From contig JASSKH010000006.1 of NCBI GenBank assembly GCA_031763025.1, positions 4,957,691 to 5,021,690 on the forward strand: a DNA stretch of 64,000 nt. The letters run 5' to 3'. The DNA is from Macrocystis pyrifera (Eukaryota > Sar > Phaeophyceae > Laminariales > Laminariaceae). Below the pieces are notes generated by a model. That model was given only the letters and a program-made list of their open reading frames with translations, ran no database searches and was not told where the DNA came from. Of the stretch, positions 7,853 through 61,136 are shown piece by piece. Position 1 is the first letter of the stretch. Each line of letters begins with the position of its first letter. The translations under genes and the position numbers were made by a program.

Positions 7853-7915
7853 ACCCCCCCCCCCCTCCCCCTTCTCTAAATCTGGATGGGTTGGCGTCGA
7901 ATGGCGAGGACGCTG
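7853..7915 (+). mobile_element. C run plus 5'-end signature shared with the poly(C) SINE-like elements
   Basis: A run of 14 C followed by TCCCCC is followed by GGGTTGGCGTCG at about 7,889 and then a TGGC..GAC..CTGT series. The SINE-like elements at 25,761 and 27,189 begin with the same GGGTTGGCGTCG in the same place relative to a C run. This may be the true 5' end of the LINE whose ORFs start near 9,740, or a SINE relic. Copy B has the same at 42,964-43,030. Confidence 0.4.
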
Positions 7916-8044
7916 TGTCTTTTTCCCCAGACACTAGACATGCAATGTGCAGTTCCTTCCGGCGCAAATACCGCATAGACCAGACAAAACACAGACACCA
8001 TGCAAACAACAGCTCCAAAACCAGACTCACCGGTAAAGTAAACA

Positions 8045-8420
8045 CAATACAATATAAGTTTTTTCCCATACCAAAACACTACCCAGATTTAGAGATGAAT
8101 TTACTCAACTAACATTTTTTTTTCCGTACTGAAACGCAAAAACCAGATTTAGACGTGAAACCATTGAATTAACGAGTTTTTTTTTTCCGTTATCATAACA
8201 CAAACCTCATTCAGACATGAAATTACTCTACTATTAATAATCATTTTCTTTCGATATCGAAACCCAAAACAGAAATATATATGGAATTACTCTCCTAGCC
8301 GTTTTTTTTTTCCCATACCAAAACACAAACCAGATCTAGACATGAAATAACTATTACTCATTTATCCAGTTTTTCGCCCCCATATCCGAACCCAGACCAG
8401 AACCTAAGACATGAATAAAG
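8045..8420 (+). repeat. About 65-bp AT-rich degenerate tandem repeats
   Basis: About six degenerate units contain a T run, a CCATACCAAAACAC-like block, an ACCAGAT block and a GACATGAA block. Copy B carries the same array at 43,165-43,520. If the LINE begins at the 7,853 C run, these would be 5' UTR repeats of the LINE. Confidence 0.7.
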
Positions 8421-9076
8421 TGTATAGTCTCTCCCATACCATAATACTGGCGGTAGCGGAACAAACGATAGACCAAAAACTTAGCATGAAGGTGGACCGC
8501 CTGACATGCACACACCTAGATACAGCATGGTCACCCCCAACATGTTTAATTCACATCAAGGTTGGGGGTCTTGTGGTAAGATATCCGTAAGGCTTTACCG
8601 TTGCTGATTTCCATTGGGGCGGTGGAAAGCCTGGGCTGACATTATTCCTAAAATCCCCGACATTAGGTACACATACCAAGCGCTAAGTGAAGGGGAGGGG
8701 TGGATGATGCACGCCACTAAGTCAGCCCCAAAACAGAAATATATATGGAATTACTCTCCTAGCCGTTTTTTTTTTCTAACTCATTTATCCAGTTTTTACC
8801 AGAACCTAAGACATGAATAAAGTGTATAGTCTCTCCCATACCATAATACTGGCGGTAGCGGAACAAACGATAGACCAAAAACTTAGCATGAAGGTGGACC
8901 GCCTGACATGCACACACCTAGATAACATTCACATCTGTGCGTAAGGCTTTACCGTTGCTGATTTCCATTGGGCGGTGGAAGCCTGGGCTGACATTATTCC
9001 TAAAATCCCCGACATTAGGTACACATACCAAGCGCTAAGTGAAGGGGAGGGGTGGATGATGCACGCCACTAAGTCA
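8263..9076. repeat. Local tandem duplication private to copy A
   Basis: The block starting CCAAAACAGAAATATA at 8,263 recurs at 8,727 and both blocks end with the same GCCACTAAGTCA (8,713 and 9,065). The second unit is shorter because of internal deletions. Copy B has only one unit (43,378-43,830), so the duplication arose after the copies separated or was lost in B. Confidence 0.85.
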
Positions 9077-9466
9077 AGATCTATTATACTCATGAAACAA
9101 ACTAAAACTTGCATTTGACCGACCACACGACCATGGAGAAGGAGCACCAAGCGGTACGTGGATATCTTGGTATCTTGAAGGATATAAGTCGGTACGAAAA
9201 GTAGGGGGATTGTTGGCCAAGCTTTCCGCAGTGAAGGTCCACTCGGGAGCATTAGTGGGATAGTTACCCATGGTGAAACGTGAATATGACAGAGGAAGCG
9301 ACGTACGGGGCATCTCGATGTGAGTAAGACTTTGTGTTATGCAAGCCGTCCTTGAACCTTGCATGGTAAAAATGGCCTCCCTGGAGAAAAGTAACCAGTA
9401 CAGCAGCGGGGCAAGAAGATAGAAGATACGATCATGGGATGCCAGGATGGCTACCATACAGATCGC
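9074..9466 (-). CDS. Exon-like ORF with membrane segment, copy A (unknown)
   Basis: A minus-strand frame of about 130 codons begins directly after a good 3' splice site, a pyrimidine-rich stretch ending TTTGTTTCAG next to 9,466. It starts with a hydrophobic stretch (ILASHDRIFYLLAPLLYWLL), followed by a polar region and a stop at 9,074. Copy B (43,826-44,215) keeps the frame with one codon fewer. I recognise no domain. It is close to the LINE, so it might be antisense chance in a LINE 5' region rather than a host exon. Confidence 0.35.
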   Translation of the reverse strand, partial: AICMVAILASHDRIFYLLAPLLYWLLFSREAIFTMQGSRTACITQSLTHIEMPRTSLPLSYSRFTMGNYPTNAPEWTFTAESLANNPPTFRTDLYPSRYQDIHVPLGAPSPWSCGRSNASFSLFHEYNRS

Positions 9467-10199
9467 CTGAAACAAAGGTGAGGTACTTGTGTTAAGGGTG
9501 TTGAACTTGGCTCCAGACTACGAGCCCGTGTTGGAGACACTATTTAGTGTGGTGCGCCGACAAAAGAACTGAAAGACACCAGACCCTCAACGAGTACTAG
9601 GATTGGGAAGTCCCAATAACTTGAACAATTCCCACTACCGATATGAACACGAACAAGCTGGAGATATTCTCGGGCAGTAATTGAAAGAAAGACGGCGAGG
9701 CAGGGTGAGTGGAGAAAGAAAGATTGGCAGGGTAAAGTCCAGATAGTGCTGATATTAGGAGTTCCTAGGGCCATGACGAGGATTGAGTCCATAAGGAATT
9801 GCGACGAAAAAGTAGGACTGTACTGCATTGCAATACGAAACATATAACGAGAGAGAGAGAACGCCTTCGAGTCGGGCTAAAGCCGAAAGTGAGAGCGACT
9901 GGCAGAGGATAGAGACAGAAAAATGGTCGACATGGGTTAGAAAACTAGGATGGAGAGCATGTATAGGTATTAATAGTGGGATAGCGAAACTAGGACGTAG
10001 TCTAAGCGTGAACGAAGGTAAGTCGAAGCAGGAAACAACAAGTGGCTCAAAGGGAATGGGGGGGGAAAAACACATGGACGCAGAACAAGCAGACAAAATC
10101 AGTAACGGAAACGGAAAGAATGCTCAAAGAAGAGATAGAAAATACTCTTAGCGATAACTGAAAAGGAACAACAGGTAAGACTAGAGCGGATGGTGAAAC

Positions 10200-10975
10200 G
10201 AAAAAGAGGCTGAGAATAAGATCATGGAATGTATGTGAGTTCGCCACGGCGGAAGAGCACAAAAGGATGGAAATTGCCGAACAAGTCAGTAAGCGCGACC
10301 TAGACATAGTTGGAATTCAAGAGTTGTGGGGAGAAGGAGGGGGGGAGATAGGATGCACAGTTGGAGAGTACGCATGGACAAGAAAAAAGAGAAAGGGACA
10401 GAATAGCGAGGATAGGGGGGCAGGGGGCGTGGGATTCCTAGCCAAATAATACCTGTGTGAAATAATAGAGTTGATCTAAGACACTAACTTCGACGAAAGC
10501 ATATGGATTAAGATACCAGGGGAGCGGGCAGCGAACAATTACTTTTTAGGAAACATTTATGTGCCCCCAGAGTCGAAGAATACGATAAAATATATACAGA
10601 GGAAGTTCGAAGAAGTCGCGGTAGTTGTACAGAAAAATACGAGGCAAGGAGAAGTCGTAGTAGTGGGAGATTTAATTGAGGAATTGAGAAGGCAAGCAAA
10701 CTGAATGGAACGTTGGAAAATACGCAGAAGTAAACAAGAATAAGAATCGGGAAGAGATGTTGAAGTTCCTCAAGCACAGCGGGATGAAGACGTTGAACGA
10801 CAGAGTAGAAAACGCAGAACCGGAATGGACTAGACGGTGCATACAAAGGGGAAAATGCTCTGTCCCTGACTCTATAGCAGTAGAAAATGGGGGTCGTAAG
10901 GAAACGGAACCACATGTATGCGCAGCGGACGTAGGAACTACGGATCACTGTCCAATATGGGCAGACAGTTAACAG
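10200..10975 (+). pseudogene. LINE endonuclease domain remnant, copy A
   Basis: The AP-type endonuclease is recognisable by SWNVCEF, the catalytic-glutamate block VGIQELW, the glycine-rich AGGVGFLAK, the block EVVVVGDL (where the family usually has GDFN) and TTDHCPIWAD near 10,940, the usual DH motif. The frame is broken into several pieces. Such endonucleases nick target DNA to prime reverse transcription. Confidence 0.85.
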
Positions 10976-11669
10976 AGGAGAGTTATCAACCATAGACGAG
11001 GTAGGAAATTGCACAGATGTAAACTAGATAAAACCAAAAATACACGGCACGAGTTCCAAGAAGAGATGGCCAAAAATGCAGAGCAATTTTCCGAGCTATT
11101 GGACATAATAGGTGCAACGAGGAATGATATAGAGAGGGACGATGCAGGAGCTAGGATAATAGAAGGATGGGAGCAGTTGGTCAAGCCCACAGCAAGTAAA
11201 GTAGTAAGGACGAAATTGATAGTATGCAACAGAGCAGTAAAATGGTGGGATGCGGAGAGCGACTATAACAGCAAGGAGAAAGGCACACGAAATATATATA
11301 TCGAATAAAAAAACATGACAGGATGGGAGGTATATGCTACAGCTAGAAAGAAAGAACCAAAATGGTAGAGAAGAAGAAGGGTGTACGGAAAGACGTAGTA
11401 ATCAAAACGAATCATCACTTTGTGGGCCGGATGAAGCAGATGTGGGTAGGGATAAAAAAGAGTTACTGGGCAAACAAGCAGGAGAGGCAGACACGGGAAT
11501 AGCCCCCCTAAGAGCACAGAACGGTAGAATGGTTGGTAGTTGGGAGGGGAAAAGTGAATTACCAGTAGAGCATTAGCGTAAGCTAGAAACACCCGCAGCC
11601 AACGAAACATTCGACGTAGAATTCGAGATAGACCTCGACGCGTGGGCAGAGGTGAACGTAGATGCATAA

Positions 11670-12892
11670 GAAAGAGAAGACAGTGGTCGGACGGGTTACA
11701 AAGAGCGTTCACAAGGGAAGAAGTGAAGATGCGTGTAGCTAAACGTAAGAAAAGAAAGGCAGCAGGGGCAGCCCAAACAGTGCATGAATTTATGAAGTAC
11801 GGGGGAGCAGGAATGTTGTATAACTGGATATGGGGTAACGAGAAGGCACCTAGGAGGTGGAGAGAAGGAGCAGTAGTAAATTTATTCAAGAAAGGAGATA
11901 AGGCTGACCCGGGGAACTATAGAGAGATAACGGTACTAAGCACAGTAGGCAAAACATTTTGTAAGATTTTGAACGATAGAATGGGAACGATGTTAGAGAA
12001 GGGAGACAAAATATACGATAGGCAAGCAGGGCTTAGGCCAAACCATAGCTGCGTAGACCATGTATGTGTACACCTTAGGTAAGATAATCCAAGGCGGGAA
12101 GGACCCGGGACTAACAACGTACTGTTTCTTTCTAGATGTACAGAGCGCTTACGACACAGTTTGGAGAAATGAATTGTGGAAAAACCTGTGGAGACTAGGA
12201 CTCAGAGGAAGGATGTGGAGAATGATGAAGGAGATGACGGAATGTGCGAGAAGTGCTGAGATGCTGGACGAGGAAGTATCGAAGTATGTTGATATATCAC
12301 AAGGAGTTGTACAGGGATGTACGCTGTCACCTAGCCTATTCAAAATATTCTTTAACGACCTGGTAGTAGCAGCCGAAGCAGCAAGGCAGGGAGTCGCGGT
12401 AAGGAAAATACGGTGTCGGGATTGATGTTTGCGGATGACTTCGTGGGGGTATCAGAAACACCCAAAGAATTGCAGAAACTAATAGAGAAGGCGCTGGAGT
12501 ACAAGTAGGAAATGGAGGGTGACGGTGAACTTCCAGAAATGCGCAGTAGTGGTTTGTAACGAAGATAAGGTGAACCCGGAAAAATTCAGGTGGAAGTGGG
12601 GAGAAGATGAATTGCCGATCGTAGATCAGCATACGTACCCAAACGTAGACATCTCCAAAGACTGCTCTTGGGATGCACATATAGCAAGAGTAATAGGAAA
12701 GGGTAAATCACGCGTAGACAAGATGGATGCGATCCTAACAGACTCGCACCTTGACACCAGGATTATGACATGTATCCTGATGAATGGGGTGGTACCAAAG
12801 CTAGAATATGCAGGTGAAGTATGGGAAGGGAACGCGAAACTCGTACAACAGGTAGACACAGTACAGATGACAGCAGCTAAAAATATGTAAGA
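11670..12892 (+). pseudogene. LINE reverse transcriptase domain remnant, copy A
   Basis: Reverse transcriptase blocks are clear and in order: ADPGNYREITVLSTVGK, QAGLRPNHSCVDH, motif A FLDVQSAYDTVWR, motif B QGVVQGCTLSPS, the active-site block FADDF near 12,430 and a downstream NFQKCAVVV block. The pieces fall in different frames. This is APE-type LINE organisation. I would not assign a clade without a tree. Confidence 0.9.
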
Positions 12893-13394
12893 TGCCCAAG
12901 TACGACTAGAAATACAGTATGAGGAGCAGAATCTGGAATGCACCCACTCAAGACAAAGAGAGCCATGAGAAAGTTGAAATGGTAAAATAAAGTAAGGAAC
13001 ACATGCACTAAAAAGAACTTGCCAGTCATAGTTGATAGAGCTGTATGGGAGACAGAAACAAAAGGGCGAGCTGGAATATGGTGGGATGGCGTAGTTGACA
13101 AAGTATCAAAGGATATAGGGGGAAACCAAGAAGAGTTGATGCCCGCCGGGAAGTCTGGGAGGTACAAGGCAGAAGTAGAAGAAATGATAGAAAGAAGGAA
13201 AAGGCTAGCGTTATGACACAGGGTAGAATCGGAACAACACTCATTTGTAAAGATCTACGGGGCATTGAGGGAAGTAATAGGAATGAAAACGTATGTGCAC
13301 GGCTCAATCGACTTCGCGAAAACGCTGAAACTGCGCTTTCGTGTAGGTGACCTGGACCTGCCAGAAAGAAGAAAGAGGTGTACCAGTAGCTAAG

Positions 13395-13774
13395 AGGAGG
13401 ATTAAGTAGATGCACTGATGCGCCCGTGTGGCAAAGCAATAGAGAGTAGAACTCGCATAGTAGGAGGATGTGAAATATAGAAGAAGGAACGGGATTAAGA
13501 GAGGAGATGAGGGAAATAGACGAATGTGATATGGAGGAGTTTGATACACTAGATCGCAACGAGAAAACGGTCGCTATCCTAGGATATAGATGGTGGCCAC
13601 AGGCGGCCAAGCAAGAAGGGGATAAGATTAGCAAATGTTTCTATTATATATTTGGAAATAACGCATTGAGCGCCCAATTGTTGGACGTGTCTCTTCTAGG
13701 AGTAGGGACGGTGCTCCGTGTCGAAAGGAATGCGTGGTCAATGGTCAAATGACTAAGGCGAGCAACAAATGAGT

Positions 13775-13775
<1 letters not shown>
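13395..13775 (+). pseudogene. LINE C-terminal region and terminal peptide, copy A
   Basis: A C..E..R(T/H)..GGC knuckle-like block near 13,418-13,475 precedes an Asp/Glu-rich helix and KTVAILGYRWWPQAAKQEGD. A final frame reads RSRDGAPCRKECVVNGQM and then TKASNK to the TGA. The last codons contain the hairpin TGGTC-AAAT-GACTA. Only GTA separates the stop codon from the poly(C) tract, so there is no ordinary 3' UTR. Confidence 0.8.

Positions 13776-13825
<50 letters not shown>
13776..13825 (+). repeat. Poly(C) tail of LINE copy A, 50 C
   Basis: An uninterrupted run of 50 C between the LINE terminus (GAGTA) and the flank GCTGTCTAGCGAACG. The paralogous tract at 48,611 has 212 C. Confidence 0.95.
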
Positions 13826-20780: not shown

Positions 20781-21007
20781 TGGTAGTGGTAGTGGTAGTA
20801 TTCAAGAAGCGAGACAGTTTGTACGTGTATTGCACCCGTGGGGGTGTGAACGTCTGACACCAACCTCTTCAGCCGGCGCCCTTGCACCCGCCCTCCACCC
20901 ACCCCACCCAATCGCTTTCCCCCCCTCGTGCCCCCATCAACCGTCACCCTTGCACCCGTCCTCCTCTCGCCACGCCCAACCTCCCCCCCATCCCCCCTTC
21001 CCAACAT

Positions 21008-21083
21008 TATAGGGATGCGGTCTATGGTAATATAAAGTCATACGACTATGGCCATGCATGATAATGAGTACGCCCCCCCCCCC
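21008..21083 (+). mobile_element. 3' fragment of a poly(C) SINE-like element, copy A
   Basis: The sequence ...GTCATACGACTATGGCC..ATGCATGATAATGAGTACG leads into a C-rich run. It matches the last 70 bp of the full elements at 25,761 and 27,189. The copy B equivalent is at 56,296-56,385. Confidence 0.75.
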
Positions 21084-21808: not shown

Positions 21809-21886
21809 GGGGGGGGGGGCGTACTCATGTTGTGCTTGCCTTAGTCATTTGACCATTGACCACGTATCGCTTTCGAGACGGAGCAA
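21809..21886 (-). mobile_element. 5'-truncated LINE tail with poly(C), copy A
   Basis: On the minus strand it reads APSRKRYVVNGQMTKASTT, stop, GTACG and then C, so only the last 70 bp of the LINE is present. It lies in the methyltransferase intron, antisense to the gene. The copy B homologue is at 57,131-57,207. Confidence 0.8.
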
Positions 21887-21893
21887 AAAAGGC

Positions 21894-22408
21894 GGGGGGA
21901 TACTCATTGTCATGCATGGCCGTAGTCGTATGGCTATATACCCTCGCATTCCTACACTGCCGGGACGGAGCACGTCAGGTTTTCACCAACCAGTCAGGCA
22001 TTACTTGCACCAACCACGAAGCGCCGTGAGGTGTTGGGCGAGTCGCACGAAGGTTGAGCTACATTCTACCAAGAACGGCTTTTGAGGCGGGGTTGCTTGC
22101 ATATGGATGACAGCGTCAATGCTTTGATTTATTTTCTGGTGTGGCCACTTCCAGAGACAGCAATGGGCTCACTGTGTAACTGGAGCGTGGGTGCTTTACC
22201 ATATATACACTACGTGACACGATCATCCCTCGAGTGCGGAGTTGGGGTTTTTCCCGTACAAAAAGGATCTAACTCGGCCTCCAGCCGTGGTGACCGCAAA
22301 AAAAACGGTACCCTGGCTGTCGAGCTCACACAGTCAGAGGCATGCTATACAGCGTCGTCGCCCACGGACACCAACCCAACGTTTGTATATATACGAGGTA
22401 TATGATAT
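21894..22408 (-). mobile_element. Poly(C) SINE-like element in the methyltransferase intron, copy A
   Basis: Minus-strand element of about 0.5 kb. Its 5' end near 22,390 has GTTGGGTTGG and its 3' end has ATGCATGACAATGAGTAT followed by C. Homologous to the elements at 25,761, 26,330 and 27,189. Both ends abut G/C runs. The copy B version at about 57,214-57,665 has lost roughly 80 bp internally. Confidence 0.75.
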
Positions 22409-22520
22409 GGGGGGGGGGGGGGCGTACTCATTTTTCGCTTTCTTTACTAGTTGTCATTTGACCATTGACCACGCACCCCTTTCGAGACGAAGCATATAGG
22501 GGGGGGGGGGGGGGGGGGGG
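22409..22520 (-). mobile_element. Second 5'-truncated LINE tail with poly(C), copy A
   Basis: On the minus strand it reads SSRKGCVVNGQMTTSKESEK, stop, GTACG, C run. A long G run (22,499-22,520) marks the other side. The tail sequence differs from the one at 21,809, so it is an independent insertion. The copy B homologue is at 57,666-57,757. Confidence 0.8.
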
Positions 22521-25165: not shown

Positions 25166-25760
25166 CGAGCAATCCTGAATAATACGGGTCTCCCATGTGC
25201 CGCTCTGACCGGGAATATGAACCATGTTTGGAGTCTGATACCAAACTCAAACGGTGATTATGTTCCGGACCAGATTGGTCTAGCTTGTGGCATGTTCGTT
25301 CGTTAGCCCTGGGCAGGGGCGTTGTCGGTCCCCGAGAGGGCCGACCACAAAAACGAATACTTAAGTACGTGCAGTGTCTCAGGTACAAAAAAAAAAAAAC
25401 AAATAAAAGGTATATATCTGCCTTCAGCAGTAGGTAGAAAGTAGCGCTGGTGCATTAATCGTGGTCAACTGAGGTTTATAGCTCAGACGACGCAGCTGTC
25501 CTATATGTGTTTTTGCGGGCAATATTACAGCAGCATGGTTTATGTCCATACGTACGAAATACGCCACTCTGGCGGGGACAATATTTCCCTGTTCGGACTC
25601 TGATATGAACGCTCGAACGGTGATGACATTTCCTAATATAGTGATACGTGTTCGTGTTTCGCTTTTCGTATTGTAGGGCGTGTAACCGCGGCAGTCTTGC
25701 TTGTGCCTGTGCCGCTCTGACCTATATGCCTTGATGCAAATATGCCCCCCCCCCCTCCCT

Positions 25761-26308
25761 ATTATATATATATATTGTACATGGGTTGGGTTGGCGTCGG
25801 CTGGCAACGACACTGTAAAACATGCCGCTCACTACGTGAGCTAGACATCCAGGGTACCGTTTTTTTTTGTTTTTTTGTTTTGGCGGTCGCCCACAGCTGG
25901 TCGTCTAGTTAGATCATTTGTGCGAAGTAAAGAACCATTACTCTGCACAAGGGAATTGATCGTATCACGTAGTGTTCAAGGTAAGGCACCCAAGAGGCAG
26001 TTACATAGTACTCCCATTGCTGTCTCTGGAAGTGGCCACACCTGAAATTAAACTAACTCATTGAAGCTGTCATCCATATGCAAGTCCGCCCCACAAGCGG
26101 TTCTTAGTTGGATGCAGCTCACCCTTCATGCGACTCGCCGGACACCTCACGGCGCTCCGTGCTTGGTGCAAGCAATGTCTGCCTGGTCGGTGAAAACCCG
26201 ACGAGCTCCGTCCCGGCATCGTAGGGATGTGAGGGTCTATGGTCATACGACTACGGCCATGCATGAGATCGAGTAGATCTCTCCTGTCGAGTACCCCCCC
26301 CCCCCCCC
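25761..26308 (+). mobile_element. Poly(C) SINE-like element, private to copy A (1)
   Basis: About 0.53 kb from an AT run plus GGGTTGGGTTGGCGTCGG at the left to GTCGAGTAC and a C run at the right. The 3' part holds the hairpin TGGTC-ATAC-GACTA. It is preceded by a C-rich tract as well. Copy B has a C-rich empty site near 61,105-61,135. Very similar to the element at 27,189, so both are probably young. No obvious pol III B box. Confidence 0.8.
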
Positions 26309-26329
26309 TCCCCACGTCTACCTTTAATT

Positions 26330-27117
26330 AATACCTGGTATAAATATGTATAGGTGGGTTGGCGAGGCGTTTTAGGAGTTTCATTCACACTTTGGGAAAA
26401 CAAAATCTGAGCCATCACGGCGTCCTCACCGGGCGCCGGTTGAAGGATGAGTACGTTACTTGTGCTTTACATTGTTGGCCGTAATGCGTACGTACACGTA
26501 CGAGATGCGTGCAGCATGAGTCGTATTCATACGTTTGCCCCCGTTGAGTTCCGCAGTATACCATGGGGGGACATAGGAGCCTCAGAAAATTGATGGTGAA
26601 TCTCTATCGTACAAAACCTCTGGCGTTGGTTGGCGGCGACGCCCTATAACACGCCTCCAACTGCGTGAGCTAGGCAACCAGGGTACAGTTTTTTTTTCGC
26701 TTTCTGGCGGTCACTACAGCCGGCGGTCGAGGTGGGTCATTTTTATGCGGGGAAACCTTTGACTCCGCACAAGGGAGATGATCCTATCTCGTAGTGTGCA
26801 CACTGTAAGGCACCCACGAGGCGGTTACATTGTAAACCTACTGCCTTCTCTGGATGTAGCCGCACCAGAAAAAAATCAATTAATTGACGCTGCCATCCAT
26901 CACCAAAACATCCGCCTCAATAGCGGTTCTGAGTAAGATGCAGCTCACCCTTCATGCGACCCGCAAAATACCTCACGGCGCTTCGTGCTTTGCGCAAGCA
27001 ATATCTGCCTGGTCGGTGAAGACCCGACGTGCTCCGTCCCGGCATTGTAGGGATGCGAGGGCATATGGTCGTGAAACTGCGGCCGTGCATAATAATGAGT
27101 ACACCCCCCCGCCTCCG
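26330..27117 (+). mobile_element. Poly(C) SINE-like element, longer form, copy A (2)
   Basis: The 3' two thirds (26,604-27,117) match the other elements and end AATAATGAGTACA plus C. About 270 bp of extra sequence lies upstream, itself starting GTGGGTTGGCGAGGCG, so this may be a longer variant or a nested pair. Shared with copy B (61,137-61,922), so older than the other two. Its hairpin stem has decayed. Confidence 0.7.
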
Positions 27118-27188
27118 CCCGCGCGCGAAAATAGTCGACACCTCTCCCTCTCTGTCGTCGACGTTTTGTAACTCCCTCCCCGCGCCCA

Positions 27189-27726
27189 TACATACATTAT
27201 GTATTGGTTGGGTTGGCGTCGGTTGGCAACGACACTGTTAAACATGCCGCTCACTACGTGAGCTAGACATCCAGGGTACCGTTTCTTTTTTGTTTCTTTT
27301 AGGCGGTCGCCCACAGCTGGTCGTCTAGTTAGATCACTTGTGCGAAGTAAAGAACCATTACTCTGCACAAGGGAATTGATCGTATCACGTAGTGTTCAAG
27401 GTAAGGCACCCAAGAGGCAGTTACATAGTACTCCCATTGCTGTCTGTGGAAGTGGCCACACCGGAAATTAAACTAACTCATTGACGCTGTCATCCATATG
27501 CAAGTCCGCCTCATAAGAAGTTCTTCGTAGGATGCAGCGCACCCTTCATGCGACTCGCCGGACACCTCATCACGGCGCCTCGCGCTTGGTACAAAAAATG
27601 TCTGCCTGGTCGGTGAAAACCCGACGAGCTCCGTGCCGGCAGTGTAGGGATGTGAGGGTCTATGGTCATACGACTACGGCCATGCATGAGATCGAGTAGA
27701 TCTCTCCTGTCGAGTACACCCCCCTC
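27189..27726 (+). mobile_element. Poly(C) SINE-like element, private to copy A (3)
   Basis: Close relative of the element at 25,761, starting GGTTGGGTTGGCGTCGG and ending GTCGAGTACACC in a C/CT-rich tract. Copy B has a C-rich empty site near 61,995. Insertion again lies within pyrimidine-rich, C-biased sequence. Confidence 0.8.
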
Positions 27727-28740
27727 TTCCCGCCCCCCTCTCTTCCCCTCTCCCCCCTTCCCCTCTCCTCCCCTTCCCTCCTCTCTCCTCCCCTCCCCTC
27801 CTCTCGCTCCCGTCCCCTCCCCTCCCACTTCCCTCCCGCTCGTCTCCCCACCGCCTCGTCCCTCCCCCTTCCCCTCGGCTTCTCATTGGCCTTGATTGAC
27901 CTCCGCTGACGGTCGTTGATCTTCGTTGATTTTCTTCAATTTCTCCGCGTTGGTCATCGCGGATCTCCATTTTGATCTTCACCGATCGTGACATGATCTT
28001 CATTGATATTGTCTGAACATTCATGGGTTTTCATTGGTCTCCACTGATCGTTTGACCGACTCTCTACGGATCGCCCTCACGGTGCGGATCTTCATGACCG
28101 ATCTTCGTCACTGACCATGATTTTATCTTGTCATATCTCTATGATAGATGGAAGTTCTGGACCCCCGCTGCTAGAGTACCCCGACCAGACATGTAGCTAT
28201 GTCTATATCCTCACCAAAGCGGACACCGCTTCGCTCCTGGCCCCGTTGAAGCCAAAGAGAAAGAATACTATTAATAGGAAACCGAAATTTGACGGCTTGA
28301 CTGACACCCCCCACACTATATCCCGTGTATCGGGGAGCCAAACATGCTAAGAGACCGCGGTATGATAGCTTGACTGACCGCTCCCCTGGTACATGGTACA
28401 CTACAACCAGTATAACGAAAAGAGACCTTGACGAGTACAAGAAAACGATCGCCTATCATATTGTCCGCGGGTAGGGGCGTATGGGGTGTGGGCGGGAGGG
28501 GGCTGGGAGGAAGAGGAGGGTCGGAATTTGTACGGAAACAAGTAACGGCTGCGTGCCAGCATTGTTCACCACTCTGGCCGGGAATTCAATGGATACCACT
28601 CCGGCCAGAAATACAATCTCGGTGTAGACTGCAATATCACATTCAAACGTCCCAGTGAGGGTGATGTACGATATTAGCTGCTTGCTTCGCTTGCAGATGA
28701 TGTAACACCCGTCTTAGCGTGGCACGGGTGGGCGGAGCGC
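27727..28740. other. CT-rich tract and spacer without recognisable gene
   Basis: A CCCTCT-rich block (27,727-27,880) is followed by GATC(T)TTCA(T)TGATC-type short repeats (27,890-28,110) and a single satellite-like unit (28,285-28,400). Matched by 61,990-63,010 in copy B. Confidence 0.6.
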
Positions 28741-37400: not shown

Positions 37401-37809
37401 CCATGAGGCTTTCGCTCTCGAGGATAGTATCCCGTAGGCTACGAATGGGGTCGACGTCCTCGTTCTCTGACGGAATGTGTGAGAGAGGGCCTTCCTTCTC
37501 GTCACCGTCGCTGTCCTTACTGTGACGGTGGTTGCGGTCGTTGTGTCGGTTGAGGCCGTTTTCGTGGGGGTGGAGGTCGCTGTCGTGGTGGTGCTTGTCT
37601 CTCTCGTCGTTGACGCCCAAGACGTGAGACATAACGTCCATGTGCACGTTGCATGTCGCTGGCCTGACCTCGCTCTCCTCGTATTTCTTCATGAAAGACG
37701 CAGAGAGCAGAGGGCGCGAGAGCAGGGGCGAGGGGGGAGGGAGGGGGAGAGGGAGAGGGGGAAGGAGAGAGAGAGAGAAAGACACGGGTAGAGAAAGGAA
37801 GACGTACAT
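34497..37809 (-). CDS. 93-residue tandem-repeat protein gene, copy B
   Basis: A minus-strand frame of 1,053 codons (34,648-37,809). The more likely start is the internal Met at 37,692 (MKKYEESEV), because the codons before it come from CT-rich low complexity. About 100 charged His/Asp-rich residues precede nine or more 93-residue units. The marker GCGATACACGCACAG recurs at 34,882, 35,161, 35,440, 35,719, 35,998, 36,277, 36,553, 36,832 and 37,111, every 279 bp except one 276. Each unit has CRVLCVY, an HH/DGHDE acidic-basic stretch, ANQDTHDTGDN, an SLQHSAEV block and ATFVSAYGGIGLRTV. Near 34,832 the last unit gains one base. The frame continued past it ends in a hydrophobic tail (MELFLWRVVHVVSVVLYW) with a stop at 34,497. 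Function unknown. Other frames are open too because units lack stops and are multiples of three. Confidence 0.5.
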
Positions 37810-40800
37810 TTAAGACAGAAATAGAGAGTGAGGAGTGGTTGAGACAGAGGGTGAGAGGGCGAGTGGAGCAGAGGGGTAGGGATGGCGAGAGCGAACGAAC
37901 GATATATGTATACATACAGTATGAAAGTGAAGGAGAGCGAGGGAGATGGTCGGCCTGCTTGATACAGCCATCAGAGAAACAAAAGAGAACACGATCAAAC
38001 ATTTGACATGCCTACACCCAACGGTATGGATGCTGCCGTATCCACGTCGAGCCGAAATGGGTTCCGCGCAACAAAGTAGTAGAGTACCACGGAAGGTGGT
38101 ACTCGTTGTGAGCGGAGGTTGGGCATACGCCAATCCGTTTTACGAAATTGATTGACCCATTACGAACTGCGAAATGTGAGTGAAACGTGTCCACCAGAAA
38201 AATGGCATGCAAACCACATTGCAAAGTGCTAGAGTTGGATTAGCTTTGCAGCTCTACAAGACAGTAGAGCTCACTACGTGTTCCATCAAAAAATTATTGA
38301 CACACACTGTGTACGAGACTAAGGGACTAAGGCTAACCAACGCTTGCTTCGAATGTTGACGTGTTAATCAAATCCGGGGTAAGCTGCATTCCTGTACGAA
38401 ATATACGATACAACTGGCACGTCGTGTTTTTTACCCAATTTAAAAACACATTGCAAAATCTCCTACAGCAGTAGAGTAGCTGGTACAGGTACGACTGTAT
38501 AATGTGTCAAAGTATGGCATTTGGCAATTTGACATGATGAGAGCTCGAGCAGTACGTCGTACGAGTGCTCGTAGAGGGTACGTTAATAATATCGTGTAAA
38601 AATGTCCCGAACCCCGAACTGCAATACAGAAACCGACGGTCGATTGTCACCTTTGGTGGCAAATGTGATTAAATACAATCGTACTGGAAATAGAGGTAAT
38701 TATTTATCGACAAGACCAAATGGATACACTTTTTATCCAAAGGGGCCGATACGGCACTTGGGTAGAAAAGGAAGATCCTGATTTTTGTAACGATCCCTAA
38801 AGCGGGGAAACGAAGTAGGTGCGAAAAAAAGAATCGAATATATGCAGCGACCAAAGATACAAAAGTGCCAGCAGAACGGCAACAACAGTAGTGCCGCTGC
38901 CAGCCGCTATCGCCTGATATTGGCAAGCAGGAGGATCATGCGGACAAGCTAGTAACACAACAGCTAGCTGCAGCAGCAGTACCAGCATAAGCAGCAGACT
39001 GCTGCAATAACGTGCAGCAGTAGCAACACGGCAGAAAAGGCGAGGGCCTTCTTCGAGTATGAGTTGCTGCTGATAAACAATGGTGCGCTCAATACCAGCC
39101 TACTGGCGTAACCGCGCCCGAGCATTACGCTCAATGCACGCCCGGAGCCGAACTTGGACGCTTGGCGAACAGGCCGCGGAGATCTTGCTCGTACCGCCGT
39201 GCTGCTACGCTGCTGCTGTGCTACTGCTTATGCGCCTGCTGCTGCTGCTACTGCTGCGTTGGGTGTGCGGGAAGATCTTGCCTGTATATGATTATGCTAC
39301 TGGTGTGGAGAGAGCCAGGAAGTGAATAATAGAGTAGTGATGGAGTGGGGCGCGGGCGGGGGGGGGGGGGGCGTACTCATTTGTTGCTTGCCTTAGTCAA
39401 GGCTTAGTCTTTAACCATTGACCACGCATCCCTTTCGACACGGAGGGGGGTTGGTGATAGTCACTTCTCCTCTTCATATATGGCATAACCCTCCCTGGTT
39501 TGTCCCCGTAGCGCGCCAGAAAAGCGTCGGATTTCTCTTCTGGGTTCTCGCTCCGTGATTTGAGCACGCTCGCTCATTGGTTAAGACCAACGGAGAAGCC
39601 GGCAGGTTGGACGAGTTCGCAAGCTGTATCCCCGGTCGATATAGATTGCGTATTCTCATATTACGTTTCTTTGTACAACCCAGCGATAAAATGTTACATT
39701 TGTGCAAACTATCCAACAAGATACCTTCATTTAGGGACGTCCAAAACACCCTGTCGTACCTGGTGCTTGTTCGTTTTTTCCATTCGGGGATGCAATAAAA
39801 TCATGCAGCTACAGCAGCTGTTGTTTTTGTTGACACTGGCGTTGGGTGCGGGAAGATTGTGACAAGAGAACTGCTGTAGACGATGAAAAAACGGTTGTGA
39901 AGCGTGTGGGGGGGTGGGGGTGTTGGTGGCCTCGGTCGGATAGCCTCTTCGTGCCTGCCACGGGACTGACGGTCTATTTAGACACCGGTACGGACTTGCA
40001 CGCTTTCACAACAAACCACAGAACGATACTCGTACCATATACTTGTACTTGTCTGGTGAGTTGGGTTCTCGGTCCCTGATTTAGGCACGCTCAATGGGCA
40101 AAACCAACCATAAAGCCGGCACGTTCTACGGTTTTGCAAGCTTTAAACGCCCTTTTCAACAGTTACTGATAGTTGTATTCGCCCGCGAACAGTATGGTGA
40201 TTGGACCCCGATAAGATGGACGCCTTTCTTGTTTTCGAGCCGGGTTTAGCATGCTGTTCGTGTTTTTGACGGAATGACCGGCGTGAGACCCTCGCCTAAA
40301 AGACAATCTTCGAGGAAACTTGCTTTAATTTGTTTTTTCGATTCGGAGGTGCAATCTGACCAAAACAATATAATAAATGGACCTGAATTTCAACTAAATT
40401 AATTCGTACTGAAAAGAGAGTTTACTTATATATTTTCCGTCGTCGGGCACACGAAATGGGATCATCACACAACGTACAAGGGGGGCTTTGCCGCGGCGGG
40501 CGGGCCCCCGCTTACATGCTCGTTACGATCGAGGATGTAGGCTAGTCGAGGCCGTCAAAGCGACAGCACTGTGAGCACATTAATAACAATTCGTGTTTGA
40601 GTGAACCAGCAACAACTAATGTTGCCATATAGCACAATACATAAACTAATCGAAGAAAATGTAGTACATCGAGTTGGCCACGAACTACGAGAGAAGCCGA
40701 AAGAAACGTTTCGAATATTACCACTGAGTATCGCTCTCATCTGGGTAGCTTGCTGCCTCCCCTCGTGGGCCTACTTCAAGGCGCCGCTGTTACCGTCTGG

Positions 40801-42963: not shown

Positions 42964-43030
42964 CCCCCCCCCCCCCCTCCCCCTTCTCTAAATCTGGATG
43001 GGTTGGCGTCGAATGGTGGGGACGCTGTGT
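42964..43030 (+). mobile_element. C run plus 5'-end signature, copy B
   Basis: Counterpart of 7,853-7,915: 14 C, TCCCCC, then GGATGGGTTGGCGTCGAATG. Possible 5' end of the LINE, or a SINE relic. Confidence 0.4.
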
Positions 43031-43164
43031 TTTTTTTCCCCAGACACTAGACATGCAATGTGCAGTTCCTTCCGGCGCAAATACCGCATAGGCCAGACAA
43101 AACACAGACACCATGCAAACAACAGCTCCATAACCAGACCCACCGGTGAAGTAAACACAATACA

Positions 43165-43520
43165 ATATAATTATTTTCCCATACCAAAACACTACCCAGA
43201 TTTAGAGATGAATTTACTCAACTAACATTTTTGTTTTCATACTGAAACGCGAAAACCAGATTTAGACGTGAAACAATTGAATTAACGAGTTATTTTTTCC
43301 ATTATCATAACACAAACCGCATTCAGACATGAAATTACTCTACTATTAATAATCGTTTTCTTTCGATATCGAAACCCAAAACAGAAATATATATGGAATT
43401 ACTCTCCTAACCGTTTGTTTTTTTCCCATACCAAAACACAAACCAGATCTAGACATGAAACAACTCATTTATCCAGTTTTTCGCCCCCATATCCGAACCC
43501 AGACCAGACCCAAGACGTGA
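43165..43520 (+). repeat. About 65-bp AT-rich degenerate tandem repeats, copy B
   Basis: Same array as 8,045-8,420, without the following local duplication. Confidence 0.7.
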
Positions 43521-43825
43521 ATAAAGTGTATAGTCTCTCCCATACCATAATACCGGCGGTAACGGAACAAACGATAGACCAAAAAAAATAGCAGGAAGGT
43601 GGACCGCCGGACATGCACACACCTAGATACAGCATGGTCACTCCAACATGTTTAATTCACATCAAGGTTGGGGGTCTAGTGGTAAGATATCCGTAAACCT
43701 TTACCGTTACTGATTTCCATTGGGCGGTGGAAGCCTGGGCTGACATTATTCCTAAAATCCCCGACATTAGGTACACATACCAAGCGCTAAGTGAAGGGGA
43801 GGGGTGGATGATGCATGCCACTAAG

Positions 43826-44215
43826 TCAAGATCTATTATACTCATGAAACAAACACCTTGCATTTGACCGACCACACGACCAAAGAGAAGGAGCACCAAT
43901 CTGTACGTGGATATCTCGATATCTTGAAGGATAGAAGTCGGTACGAAATGTAGGGGGATTGTTGGCCAAGCTTTCGGCAGTGAAGGTCCACTCGGGAGCA
44001 TTAGTGGGATAGTTACCCATGGTGAAACGTGAATATGACAGAGGAAGCGACGTACGGGGCATCTCGATGTGAGTAAGACTTTGTGTTATGCAAGCCGTCC
44101 TTGAACCTTGCATGGTAAAAATGGCCTCCCTGGAGGAAAGTAACCAATACAGCAGCGGGGCAAGAAGACAGAAGATACTATCGTGGGATGCCAGGATGGC
44201 TACCGTACATATCGC
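43826..44215 (-). CDS. Exon-like ORF with membrane segment, copy B (unknown)
   Basis: Homologue of 9,074-9,466. The same acceptor (TTTGTTTCAG) and stop are retained and the central part ITQSLTHIEMPRTSLPLSYS is unchanged. Most differences lie near the C terminus. Confidence 0.35.
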   Translation of the reverse strand, partial: AICTVAILASHDSIFCLLAPLLYWLLSSREAIFTMQGSRTACITQSLTHIEMPRTSLPLSYSRFTMGNYPTNAPEWTFTAESLANNPPTFRTDFYPSRYRDIHVQIGAPSLWSCGRSNARCLFHEYNRS

Positions 44216-46090
44216 CTGAAACAAAGGTGAGGTACTTGTGTTAAGGGTGTTGAACTTGGCTCCAGACTACGAGCCCGTGTTGGAGGCACTATTTAGTGTG
44301 GTGCGCCGGCAAAAGAACTGCAAGACACCAGACCCTCAACGAGTACTAGGATTGGGAAGTCCCAGTAACTTGAACAGTTCCCACTACCGATATGAACACA
44401 AACAAGCTGGAGATATTCTCGGGCAGTAATCGAAAGAAAGACAGCGAGGCAGGGTGAGTGGAGAAAGAAAGATTGGCAGGGTAAAGTCCAGATAGTGCTG
44501 ATATTAGGAGTTCCTAGGGCCATGACGAGGATTGAGTCCATAAGGAAGTGCGACGACAAAGTAGGACCGTACCGCATTGCAATACGAAACATAGAACGAG
44601 AGAGAGAGAGAACACATTCGAGTCGTGTAAAGCCGAAAGTGAGAGTGAGTGGCAGAAGATAGAGACAGAAAAATGGTCGACATGGGTCAGAAAACTAGGA
44701 TGGAGAGCATGTATAGCTAGTGGTATAGCGAAACTAGGACGTAGTCTAAGCGTGAACGAAAGTAAGTCGAAGCAGGAAACAACAAGTGGCTCAAAGGGAA
44801 TGGGGGGAAAACACATTGGCGCCGAACAAGCAGACAAAAACAGAAACGGAAACGGAAAGAATGCTCAAAGAAGAGATAGAAAATACTCTTAGCGACAACT
44901 GAAAAGGAACAACAGGTAAGACTAGAGCGGATGGCGAAACGAAAAAGAGGCTGAGAATATGATCATGAAATGTATGTGAGTTCGCCACGGTGGAAGAGCG
45001 CAAAAGGATCGAAGTTGCCGAACAAGTCAGTAAGCGCGACCTAGACATAGTTGGAATTCAAGAGTTGTGAGAGAAGGAGAGCGGGGAGATAGGATGCACA
45101 GTTGGAGAGTACGCATGGACAAGAAAAAAGAGGAAGGGACAGAATAGCGAGGATAGGGGGGCAGGGGTCGTGGGATTCCTAGTCAAATAATACCTGTGTG
45201 AAATAATAGAGTTGATCTAAGACACTAACTTCGACGAAAGCATATGGATTAAGATACTAGGGGAGCGGGGAGTGAACAATTACTTTTTAGGAAACATTTA
45301 TATGCCCCCAGAGTCGAAGAATGCGATACAATATATACAGAGGAAGTTCGAAGAAGTCGCAGTAGATGTACAGAAAAATACGAGGCAAGGAGAAGTCGTA
45401 GTAGTGGGAGATTTAATTGAAGAATTGGGAAGGCAAGCAAACTGAATGGAACGTTGGAAAGTACGGAGAAGTAAACAAGAATAAGAATCGGGAAGAGATG
45501 TTGAAGTTCCTGAAGCACAACGAGATGAAGACGTTGAACGACAGAGTAGAAAACGCAGAACCGGAATGGATTAGGCAGTGCATACAAAGGGGAAAAAGCT
45601 CTGTCCTTGACTCTATAGCAGTAGAAAATGGGGGTCGTAAGGAAACGGAACCACATGTATGCGCAGCGGACGTAGAGAACTACGGATCACTGTCGAATAT
45701 GGGCAGACAGTTAACCGAGGAGAGTTATCAACCATAGACGAGGTAGGAAATTGCACTGATGTAAACTAGATAAAACCAAAGATAAACGGCACGAGTTCCA
45801 AGAAGAGATGGCCAAAAATGCAGAGCAATTTTCCGAGCTATTGGAAATAATAGGTGCAACGAGGAATGATATAGAGAGGGACGATTCAGGAGCTAGGATA
45901 ATAGAAGGATGGGAGCAGTTGGTCAAGACCACATCAAGTAAAGTAGTAAGGACGAAATTGATAGTATGCAACAGAGCAGTAAAATGGTGGGATGAGGATG
46001 TGAGAGCGACTATAACAGCAAGGAGAAAGGCACACGAAAGATATATATCGAATAAATACATGACAGGATGGGAGGTATATGCTACAGCTA

Positions 46091-46195
46091 TTCCAGTGGT
46101 CCATAGCTAATAGGACCTATGGTATACATAAAAATATATATATTTACCTATTTTTACTAACAAAATTTGGTCCCGTTAACTATGGACCCCCGTAA
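46091..46195. mobile_element. 105-bp MITE with TA target duplication
   Basis: Inserted in the copy B LINE. Copy A has the empty site GCTACAGCTAGAAAG near 11,337. The element is flanked by TA on both sides (46,089-46,090 and 46,196-46,197). Terminal inverted repeats of about 27 bp match at 21 positions (outer sequences TTCCAGTGGTCCATAGCTAA and TTACGGGGGTCCATAGTTAA). Each arm contains a GGTCC...GGACC inverted pair. The middle is AT-rich. A TA duplication and short size suggest a Tc1/mariner-type non-autonomous element. Confidence 0.85.
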
Positions 46196-48609
46196 TAGAA
46201 AGAAAGTACCAAAATGGTAGAGGGGTACGGAAAGACGTAGTAAACAAAACGAATCAACACTTTGAGGGCGGGATGAAGCAGATGTGGGTAGGGATAAAAA
46301 CGAGTTACTGGGCAAACAAGCAGGAGAGGCAGACACGGGAATAGCCACCCTAAGAGCACAGAACGGTAGAATGGTTGGTAGTTGGAAGGGGAAAAGTGAA
46401 GTACCAGTAGAGCATTAGCGTAAGCTAGAAACACCCGCAGCCAACGAAACGTTCGACGTAGAATTCGAGATAGAACTCTACGCGTGGGCAGAGGTGAGCG
46501 TAGATGCATAAGAAAGAGAAGACAGTGGTCGGAAGGGTTACGAAGAGCGTTCACAAGGGAAGAAGTAAAGATGTGTGTAGCTAAACGTAAGAAAAGAAAG
46601 GCAGCAGGGGCAGCCCAAACAGTGCATGAATTTATGAAGTACGGGGGAGCAGGAATGTTGTATAACTGGATATCGGATAACGAGAACGCACCTAGGAGGT
46701 GGAGAGAGAAAGAGCAGTAGTAAGAAAGGAGATAAGGCTGACCCGGGAAACTATAGAGAGATAACGCTACTAAGCACAGTAGGCAAAACATTTTGTAAGA
46801 TTTTGAACGATAGAATGGGAACGATGTTAGAGAAGGGAGACAAAATAAGCGAAGGGCAAGCAGGGCTTAGGCCAAACCGTAGCTGTGTAGACCATGTATG
46901 TGTACACCTTAGGTAAGATAATCCAAGGCGGGAAGGACCCGGGACTAACAACGTACTGTTTCTTTCTAGATGTACAGAACGCCTACGACACAGTATGGAG
47001 AAATGGATTGTGGAAAAACCTGTGGAGACTAGGACTCAGAGGAAGGATGTGGAGAATGATGAAAGAGATGACGGAATGTGCAAGAAGTGCTGAGATGCTG
47101 GACGAGGAAGTATCGAAGTATGTTGATATATCACAAGGAGTTGTACAGGGATGTACGCTGTCACCTAGCCTACTCAAAATATGCTTTAACGACCTGGTAG
47201 TAGCAGCCGAAGCAGCAAGGCAGGGAGTCGCGGTAGGGGAAAATACGGTGTCGGGATTGATGTTTGCGGATGACTTCGTGGGGATATCAGAAACACCCGA
47301 AGAATTGCAGAAACTAACAGAGAAGGCGCTGGAGTACAAGTAGGAAATGGAGAGTGACGATGAACTTCCAGAAATGCGCAGTAGTGGTTTGTAACGAAGA
47401 CAAGGTGAACCCGGAAAATTTCAGGTGGAAGTGGGGAGAAGATGAATTGCCGATCGTAGATCAGCATACGTACCCTGACGTAGGCATCTCCAAAGACTGC
47501 TCTTGGGATGCACATATAGCAAGAGTAACAGGAAAGGGTAAAGCACGCGTAGGCAAGATGGATGCGATCCTAACAGACTCGCACCTTGACACCAGGATTA
47601 TGACATGTATCCCGATGAATGGGGTGGTACCAAAGCTAGAATATGCAGGTGGAGTATGGGAAGGGAACGCGAAACTCGTACAACAGTTAGAAACAGTACA
47701 GATGACAGCAGCTAAAAATATGTAAGATGCCCAAGTACGACTAGTAATACAGTATTAGGAGCAGAATCTGGAATGCACCCGCTCAAGACAAAGAGAGCCA
47801 TGAGAAAGTTGAAATGGCAAAATAAAGTAAGGAACACATGCACTAAAAAGAACTTGCCAGTCATAGTTGATATAGCTGTATGGGAGGCAGAAACAAAAGG
47901 GCGAGCTGGAATATGGTGGGATGGCGTAGTTGACAAAGCATTAAAGGACATCGGGGGGAAACCAAGAAGAGTTGATGCCCGCCGGGACGTCTGGGAGGTA
48001 CAGGCAGAAGTAGAAGAAATGATAGAAAGGAGGGAAAGGCTAGCGTTAAGACACAGGGTGGAATCGGAGAAACACTCATTTGTAAAGATCTACGGGGAAT
48101 TGAGGGAAGGAATAGGAATGAAAACGAATGTGCACGGCTCAATCGACTTCGCTAAAACGCTGAAACTGAGCTTTCGTGTAGGTGACCTGGACCTGTCAGA
48201 AAGCAGAAAGAGGTGTACCAGTAGCTAAGAGGAGGAGTAAGTAGATGCACTGATGCGCCCGGGTGGCAAAGCAATAGAGAGTAGAACTCGCATAGTAGGA
48301 GGATGTGAAATATAGAAGAAGGAACGGGATTAAGAGAGGAGATGAGGGAAATAGACGAATGTGACATAGAGGAGTTTGATACACTAGATCGCAACGAGAA
48401 AACGGTCGCTATCCTAGGATATAGATGGTGGCCACAGGCGGCCAAGCAGGAAGGGGATAAGATTAGGAAATGTTCCTATTATATATTTGGAAATAACGTA
48501 TTGAGCGCCCAATTGTTGGACGTGTCTCTTCTAGGAGTAGGGACGGTGCTCCGTATCGAAAGGGATGCGTGGTCAATGGTCAAATGACTATGGCGAGCAA
48601 CAAATAAGT

Positions 48610-48823
<214 letters not shown>

Positions 48824-56295: not shown

Positions 56296-56385
56296 CAACA
56301 TTATAGGGATGCGGTCTATGGTAATATAAGGTCATACGACTATGGCCATGCATGATAATGAGTATACTCCCCCCCCCCCCCCCCC
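56296..56385 (+). mobile_element. 3' fragment of a poly(C) SINE-like element, copy B
   Basis: Counterpart of 21,008-21,083. It ends AATGAGTATACT plus C, with the stem sequence GGTC-ATAC-GACTA better kept than in copy A. Confidence 0.75.
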
Positions 56386-57130: not shown

Positions 57131-57207
57131 GGGGGGGGGGGCGTACTCATGTTGTGCTTGCCTTAGTCATTTGACCATTGACCACGTATCCCTTTCGAGG
57201 CGGAGCA
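57131..57207 (-). mobile_element. 5'-truncated LINE tail with poly(C), copy B
   Basis: Homologue of 21,809-21,886. It reads APPRKGYVVNGQMTKASTT, stop, GTACG, C run. Confidence 0.8.
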
Positions 57208-57213
57208 AAAACG

Positions 57214-57665
57214 GCGGGGGGATACTCATTGTCATGCATGGCCGTAGTCGTATGGCTCTATACACAAAGCGCCGTGAGGTGTAGGGCGAGTCGCACGAAG
57301 GTTGAGCTGCATTCTACCAAGAACGGCTTTTCAGACGGGTTTTCTTGCATATGGATGGCAGCGTTAATGCCTTGATTTATTTTCTGGTGTGGCCACTTCC
57401 AGAGACAGCAATGAGCTCACTGTGTAACTGCGTCGTGGGTGCTTTACCATATACAACACTACGTGACACGATCATACCCGTTGTGCGGATTTGAGGTTCT
57501 TCCCGCGCAAAAAGGATCCAACTCGACCGCCAGCCGTAGTTAGTGACCGAATCAAAACAAACCGGTACCCTGGCTGTCGAGCTCACACAGTCAGAGGCGT
57601 GCTATACAGCGTCGCCGCCAACGGACACCAACCCAACCTTTGTGTAGATACGAGGTATATGATAT
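57214..57665 (-). mobile_element. Poly(C) SINE-like element in the methyltransferase intron, copy B
   Basis: Homologue of 21,894-22,408 with an internal deletion of about 80 bp near 57,262. Confidence 0.7.
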
Positions 57666-57762
57666 GGGGCGGGGGTCGGGCGTACTCATTTTCCGCTTGC
57701 TTTACTAGTTGACATTTGACCATTGACCACGCACCCCTTTCGAGAAGAAGCAAATAGGGGGG
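57666..57762 (-). mobile_element. Second 5'-truncated LINE tail with poly(C), copy B
   Basis: Homologue of 22,409-22,520. It reads SSRKGCVVNGQMSTSKASGK, stop, GTACGCC. Confidence 0.8.
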
Positions 57763-60545: not shown

Positions 60546-61136
60546 TTTAAAAATATGGGTCTCCCATGTGCCACTCTGATCGGGAATATAAACCATGTTG
60601 CGAGTCTGATGCGATACTCAAACGGTGACTATGTTCCGGGCCAGATTGGTATAGCTTGTGGCATGTTCGTTCGTTAGCCCTGGGCAGGGGAGTTGTCGGT
60701 CCCCGAGTGGGCCGACCACAGAAACGAAAACTTGCGTTCGTGCAGTGTCTCAGGTATGAAAACACAAAAACACAAATAAAAGGTATATATCTCCCTACAG
60801 CAATAGGTAGAAAGTAGCGCTGGTGCATTAATTGTGGCCACCTGAGGTTTATAGCTCAGACGACGCGGCTGTCCTACATGTGTTTTTGCGGACTATATCA
60901 CAGCAGCATGTTTTATGTCCATAGGTACGAAATACGCCGCTCTGGCCGGGACAATATTTCCCTATTCCGACTCTGATATGAACGTTTGAACGGTGATAAC
61001 ATTCCCGACTATATTTAATGGCTTTCGTTTTTTTGGGCCTGTAACCGCGGCAGTCTTGCGTGTGCCTGTGCCGCTCTGACCTATATACTTTGATGCAAAT
61101 ATCCCTCCCTCCTCCCCGGCCCCCCCGCCCATCTTT

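Follow-up and report, generated by a model that had tools for sequence, protein, structure and literature searches.

A 64,000-nucleotide stretch of the genome of the kelp Macrocystis pyrifera (the window) holds three SINE-like elements of ~0.5 kb side by side (25761-27726), whose ends recall that of a LINE elsewhere in the window. The original prediction was that these short elements are mobilised by a poly(C) LINE through a shared 3' hairpin. This raises the questions of how far the likeness between the two kinds of element extends, whether the hairpin is maintained among their genomic copies, and what the C-runs at their junctions represent.

Organization of the window and inventory of elements

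The genome searched comprised 537 Mb in 223 contigs, and the window is part of contig C220. It consists largely of two halves (1-34700 and 34700-64000), duplicated segments lying ~35 kb apart, and the blocks matched between them by BLAST are for the most part 86-96% alike. The elements identified in it are collected in Table 1. Element 1 is missing from the duplicate half: the BLAST blocks shared with that half stop at 25759 and restart at 26296, and the empty site lies near 61107-61116. Downstream of element 1 another GGGTTGGCG start was seen (26345-26460, and near 61169), possibly a decayed element or a chance occurrence.

Reading frames are broken in both LINE copies. Relatives of the RT piece in the PDB include R2 and LINE-1 proteins. 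The 5' region of copy A contains repeated units (8059-9076), and the 5' flank of the LINE in the window recurs on contig C220 at 5.30, 5.33, 5.43 and 5.54 Mb. A 1,053-aa open frame on the reverse strand (34651-37809) covers a 279-bp tandem repeat and has a single Pfam match, which is not significant (E 0.096); ten other ORFs of the window gave one sub-threshold Pfam match only. In viral contigs, 14 stretches fitting the pattern of the LINE RT piece included no relative, and three matches to the SINE 18-mer (see below), which had no surrounding element, were dropped.

Table 1. Elements and sub-features located in the window, with strand and the evidence or context for each
Feature	Position	Strand	Evidence or context
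SINE-like element 1, full length	25766..26293	+	BLAST 92% to 27188-27736
Left target-site duplication of element 1	25745..25759	+	C11TCCC
3' domain of element 1 (LINE/SINE shared tail)	26203..26276	+	Alignment and folds
Originally predicted hairpin TGGTC-ATAC-GACTA, element 1	26240..26253	+	Present in predicted minimum-energy fold
SINE-like element 2	about 26613..27103	+	Duplicate at 61430-61913
SINE-like element 3, full length	27188..27716	+	Missing from duplicate half; empty site near 61998 (by eye)
SINE-like element 4	21891..22408	-	Within C-run of the 22423..22496 LINE tail; duplicate near 57213-57665
SINE-like element 5, tail-only	21005..21072	+	In C-rich tract; duplicate near 56305-56366
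LINE copy A, full length, frames broken	7866..13775	+	Pfam PF03372 and PF00078, both below cut-off
5' end block of LINE copy A in common with SINE-like elements	about 7884-7916	+	
EN-like piece, LINE copy A	10162-10446	+	PF03372, E 1.4e-4, below cut-off
RT piece, LINE copy A	11582-12079	+	PF00078, below cut-off
C50 at 3' end of LINE copy A	13776..13825	+	
LINE copy B	42984..48610	+	Same insertion as copy A, in duplicated segment
RT piece, LINE copy B	46891-47340	+	PF00078, E 2.4e-14
C212 after LINE copy B, uninterrupted	48611-48822	+	C50 in the duplicate (copy A)
Tail-only LINE insertion, B half only	39372..39444	-	A-half empty site about 3647-3657, a C11 run
Tail-only LINE insertion beside C22	22423..22496	-	First in LINE-SINE-LINE nest; duplicate near 57682-57750
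Tail-only LINE insertion	21820..21885	-	In C-rich end of element 4; duplicate 57142-57207

The LINE and the short elements share a 3' tail

Elements 1 and 3 end GGTCATACGACTACGGCC...GAGTAC, followed by C-rich sequence, as had been described, but in element 2 the sequence is GGTCGTGAAACTGCGGCC, so that the innermost pair of the predicted stem is lost (by eye). Copy A of the LINE has the ending GGTCAAATGACTAAGGC...GAGTA and passes into C50 at 13776, while the tail of copy B differs from it at two bases and passes into C212 at 48611. The consensus tails of the LINE and of the SINE-like elements are identical at 43 of 54 columns; upstream of these lies a block, GTGCTCCGTCYCG, identical at 12 of 13 positions, with a score that was reached by 22 of 20,000 mononucleotide shuffles. 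A common tail, as proposed, is therefore confirmed, although the 18 nt first assigned to it were too few: the common 3' region measures about 66 nt in the LINE and 74 nt in the SINE-like elements.

When the tail of LINE A was compared with six SINE copies, all six observed scores exceeded those of every one of 1,000 dinucleotide shuffles, so the similarity is better than that of random tails. For a rearranged LINE copy (39371) the score was reached by 0-9 of 1,000 shuffles. With random segments of the window, 5-17 of 1,000 draws scored as high as the observed values for LINE A and 5-23 of 1,000 as high as those for copy 39371; these successes are presumably true element copies inside the window. 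Throughout the 537-Mb genome, with up to two mismatches allowed, the SINE 18-mer was found at 33,248 places (6 for the reversed control) and the LINE 17-mer at 12,983 (49 for the reversed control).

Elements 1 and 3 have an additional hairpin, GAGATC-GAGTA-GATCTC, and end in GAGTAC a second time (26260-26293 and 27683-27716), and long tails of this kind occur several times in the genome sample. On contig C125, ten SINE tails lie between 1.487 and 1.611 Mb; seven of the nine intervals between them measure about 11 kb and the other two 19 and 27 kb. We read these as a tandem cluster; seven of the ten tails carry the same two-base change.

The short elements also begin like the LINE

The SINE-like copies start with 31-41 nt in common with the LINE 5' end. 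Five SINE 5' ends were compared, two of them duplicates of one insertion. Against LINE A, no dinucleotide shuffle in 1,000 reached the score for four of the five, and 13 of 1,000 did so for element 2A; against L052, a second, independent full-length LINE on contig C201, no mononucleotide shuffle in 1,000 did so for any of the five. L052 begins with the same 5' block and is 66-84% alike to LINE A, in pieces spanning nearly the whole LINE. The exact LINE 5' end before a C5 run is rare, being found in the window, at the four same-flank sites on contig C220 and in L052. This rarity prompted the idea that the 5' end at 7884 might derive from a different element; the start of L052 from the same 5' end speaks against it.

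Between the two shared ends the elements differ, in that two SINE middles gave no match to LINE copy A. No tRNA genes were found in the window, and the two Rfam matches there were sub-threshold and lay outside the elements. Rfam and ribozyme searches gave three matches for one SINE 5' end, all far below cut-off, and none for one LINE 5' end; no HDV-like ribozyme was matched at the SINE and LINE ends scanned. Element 1 has a T9 run ~75-100 nt from its start.

Because the LINE 5' end is also carried, the short elements resemble the trypanosome RIME and NARTc elements more than a classical SINE. They share with RIME and NARTc the LINE 5' end but not LINE similarity along most of the element, the two middles being unrelated to LINE copy A. 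The short element is best called a RIME-like non-autonomous LINE, or partial LINE, and not a proven SINE.

Predicted fold of the tail and search for covariation

Folded alone, both consensus tails were predicted to form the same three helices. A closing helix pairs GUGCUC with GAGUAC, GUCYC and GGGAU form a hairpin whose loop measures 4 nt in one tail and 9 nt in the other, and a third arm completes the fold. The tip of this arm is the 5-bp stem of the original prediction, whose claim that both tails can form the same stem thus agrees with the predicted consensus folds. The predicted minimum-energy fold of element 1 contains the stem; element 2 has its innermost pair broken, and elements 2A and 2B favour another stem. 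The outer helix of element 1 contains a mismatch (GAGCTC in place of GTGCTC). The predicted fold energies of six tails are mostly ordinary, at z -2.0 for the LINE consensus, -0.7 for the SINE consensus, -0.55 for LINE A, -2.5 for each of elements 2A and 2B and +1.7 for element 4A.

Covariation was sought in 100 LINE tails (84 ungapped) and 100 SINE tails (82 ungapped), each set being the first 100 among the matches listed and selected for intact flanks, and in a 25-row SINE alignment. The LINE stem had no two-sided change among the 84 ungapped tails listed, and 12 of 29 one-sided changes kept the pair, close to the 37% expected (among the matches listed). For the SINE stem, the pair was kept in 9 of 39 one-sided changes (38% expected; distinct rows, among the matches listed) and in two of three two-sided changes in distinct rows, or three of four in all 82 ungapped rows listed; the 25-row alignment had no stem pair altered on both sides. 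Pair counts for the larger structure fell below the shuffled means. The covariation that had been suggested as a check on the stem was thus found in neither LINE nor SINE tails, which are mostly dead copies. The test is low in power: the majority of changes probably postdate insertion, and the listed LINE tails represent one consensus. We regard the predicted hairpin as plausible, if unproven.

Elements 1, 2A, 2B and 3 all retain, as judged by eye, an alternative SINE stem, ATGGTC/GGCCAT, but this was set aside for its little genome support. One-sided changes kept its pairs in 17 of 48 cases (distinct rows; 37% expected). All eight two-sided changes did so (five in distinct rows, among the matches listed), but seven of these are a single G-C to A-T change in one contig C125 cluster; a further count showed no two-sided change.

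C-runs as the probable main insertion target

Two SINE insertions and one LINE-tail insertion could be paired with an empty site, and all three empty sites are C-rich. The LINE-tail site aligned cleanly; at each of the two SINE sites one flank was misaligned automatically, and the junctions were read by eye and from the ends of BLAST blocks. The right target-site copy of element 1 lies within C15TCCC after 26293 (by eye). Other target-site duplications, recognized by eye or by script, were C7GTGATAA, CCCCCCTGCAG, C10A and C8TCCGTCC. Because duplications such as CCCCCCTGCAG and C7GTGATAA start within the C-run and extend past it, the first nick was probably made in the C-tract.

Within the window, seven of nine insertions are preceded within 60 nt by a run of at least C6 (background 3.9%), the two without being elements 2A and 3; the thresholds of this count were set with the data in view, and nested insertions do not count as independent. 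We also sampled 20 stretches of 10 kb along contig C220 (200 kb), chosen regardless of elements. Thirty insertions were found, some of which may represent one copy, and one without a left flank was dropped from the left count. A run of C6 or more lay within 40 nt on the left in 13 of 29 insertions and on the right in 19 of 29, against a background of 2.6%. As 16 of the 29 have no left C-run of six, the concentration of insertions at C-runs is a preference and not a strict rule. Another 20 SINE loci were picked for an exact tail match, and 19 of them gave rows. A run of at least C6 stood on the left in 16 of the 19, and one of at least C5 on the right in 18; several of these are duplicated loci and the counts have no separate background. 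The ending had been written GAGTA(C)n. A C-run does adjoin the tail, but the C-rich empty sites and the duplications that extend past the C-run indicate that poly(C) is mainly the insertion target rather than a tail of the element.

Nested insertions and tail-only copies

At 22508-21820, a LINE tail, a SINE and a second LINE tail sit in one another's C-runs, and the L052 nest has the order SINE-C52-LINE-SINE. In the 537-Mb genome, 902 of 2,854 exact LINE tails on the reverse strand have a C6 within 30 nt upstream, and we estimate that about a third of these tails are tail-only copies. The reverse strand was used since it gives one row per site; the forward count, inflated by sliding starts, was left out. 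Tail-only LINE copies start within GGTGCTCCG, the outer edge of the common domain, at 14 of 18 sites (by eye, among the matches listed), two of which look like one duplicated locus, and the pattern admits only starts within 30 nt. A rule that truncated copies are always tail-only was retained for the LINE and rejected for the SINE-like elements, whose 5' ends scatter.

A LINE and its probable non-autonomous partner at C-tracts

On the sequence evidence, the pairing of the short elements with the adjacent LINE is well supported. Mobilisation by this LINE is the best reading because the tail, a foldable stem and the target sites are common to both and the two nest mutually; covariation adds nothing to the case, and 'poly(C)' describes mainly where the LINE inserts. 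We consider it likely that the LINE has non-autonomous partners in the ~0.5-kb elements, which its protein copies at C-tracts. Each would carry ~33 nt of the LINE 5' end and ~70 nt of its 3' domain, separated by a middle unrelated to the LINE. The LINE protein would bind this 3' domain in its own RNA as well as in the short-element RNA, nick the G strand inside a C-tract, a site suggested by the target-site duplications, and prime reverse transcription at the nick, so that insertions would tend to have C-runs at their junctions. Each junction C-run could then take the next element, giving LINE-SINE-LINE and SINE-LINE-SINE nests. Judging from the genomic copies, reverse transcription of the LINE may often halt at the outer edge of the 3' domain and leave tail-only copies of ~65-75 nt.

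A fuller version of this model is offered tentatively, as we are more inclined to doubt it than to accept it. An APE-type LINE would target C:G homopolymer tracts and also mobilise a mini-element built from its two ends; a three-helix domain, closed by an outer helix joining the ends of the tail, would set both what is copied and where copying stops; tail-only copies would litter the genome, and insertions would leave new C-run targets. The structural part of this version competes with the view that the three-helix tail is a folding coincidence and that recognition, if any, is by sequence alone, which we judge to be only slightly short of an even chance. The lack of covariation and the mostly weak energies agree with coincidence, while against it the consensus sequences are ~80% alike and keep the same topology with one loop of 4 versus 9 nt, and the closing helix coincides with the conserved outer ends of the common region.

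Other accounts of the elements themselves seem less probable than partnership with the LINE. The length, copy number and common 3' tail would also suit a classical stringent LINE/SINE pair, in which a Pol III SINE with a small-RNA head has a LINE-derived tail with encoded poly(C). Such a pair is made improbable by the 5' end in common with the LINE, by the T9 run in element 1, which should stop Pol III, and by the finding of no tRNA gene or near-cut-off Rfam match in the window and one SINE 5' end. The poly(C) might alternatively be carried as an RNA tail, through read-through of the source copy or slippage, with upstream C-runs arising only from insertion into existing tails. This would account for C50 and C212, which exceed the duplications seen, for the variable junction between GAGTA and the C-run (C, CG, CAC, T) and for the several insertions nested in older elements, but it is unlikely in view of the three C-rich empty sites and of duplications that hold non-C bases past the C-run on both sides. 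It is partly compatible with the LINE-partner reading, since a C-tract target leaves room for a short C-bearing end on the RNA. Mutual nesting of LINE and SINE could suggest that the ends became common only via recombination or mutual insertion, different enzymes moving each; since copies at separate loci have the common ends at their boundaries and the tested middles are unlike, we find this very hard to credit.

Comparison with known systems

The eel UnaL2 and UnaSINE are an example of a stringent LINE/SINE pair. The LINE-derived 3' tail of such pairs is also met with in the kelp short elements (43 of 54 columns, and the shuffles). In Chlamydomonas, the parts available of one survey describe SINEX elements that have a stem-loop and a 3' tail in common with a LINE, of ~80 nt in SINEX-3_CR/L1-1_CR, and note that several stringent pairs have a 3' repeat other than poly(A) and SINE heads that are tRNA-derived or unknown (PMC3747384). 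The parts examined of its plant and algal 3'-repeat tables hold no (C)n, whereas the kelp tails adjoin C-runs. The trypanosome pairs ingi/RIME and L1Tc/NARTc are described, in the portions available, as having a short partner that bears a LINE 5' signature and is thought to be LINE-moved (PMC4035085, PMC2996970); RIME and NARTc are similar to the LINE over their whole length, whereas the middle of the kelp short element is unrelated. In Entamoeba, EhSINE1 is a 500-600 bp partner of EhLINE1 with about 70 bp in common at the 3' end (PMC2996970, in part); only that end is said there to match the LINE, whereas both ends do so in the kelp.

By description, the nearest published relative is RTEX-N1_Ec32 of Ectocarpus, a ~600-bp non-autonomous element that is the most abundant single family there (>6,000 copies). 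Its 3' end is like those of autonomous RTE-X LINEs (RTEX-1/RTEX-2_Ec32), and its 5' origin was left undetermined by the authors (PMC12477816, in the portion available). Shortness, abundance and a LINE-type 3' end are the points of likeness; the kelp element differs in a 5' end that matches the LINE and in its insertion at C-tracts, of which the available portion of the Ectocarpus account makes no mention. Recent RTEX-1 is described for Saccharina in the part available of a further source (PMC4421812). Some HERO families and Togen are, in the portion available, microsatellite-specific LINEs of clades with a restriction-like endonuclease (PMC4640811); insertion into simple repeats is common to these and the kelp LINE, which differs in its APE-like piece and C homopolymer target. 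No poly(C)-targeting LINE was seen in the literature listings searched, which took in only a minority of subscription papers.

With >33,000 tail matches of SINE type and nearly 13,000 of LINE type, this genome offers a natural experiment on how a LINE chooses its RNA and its DNA. Should the C-tract be the target and each junction restore it, the system would feed itself and may help to make C-runs of up to 212 bases. That a partner retains both ends of the LINE suggests a role for the 5' end, a point left open for the Ectocarpus relative.
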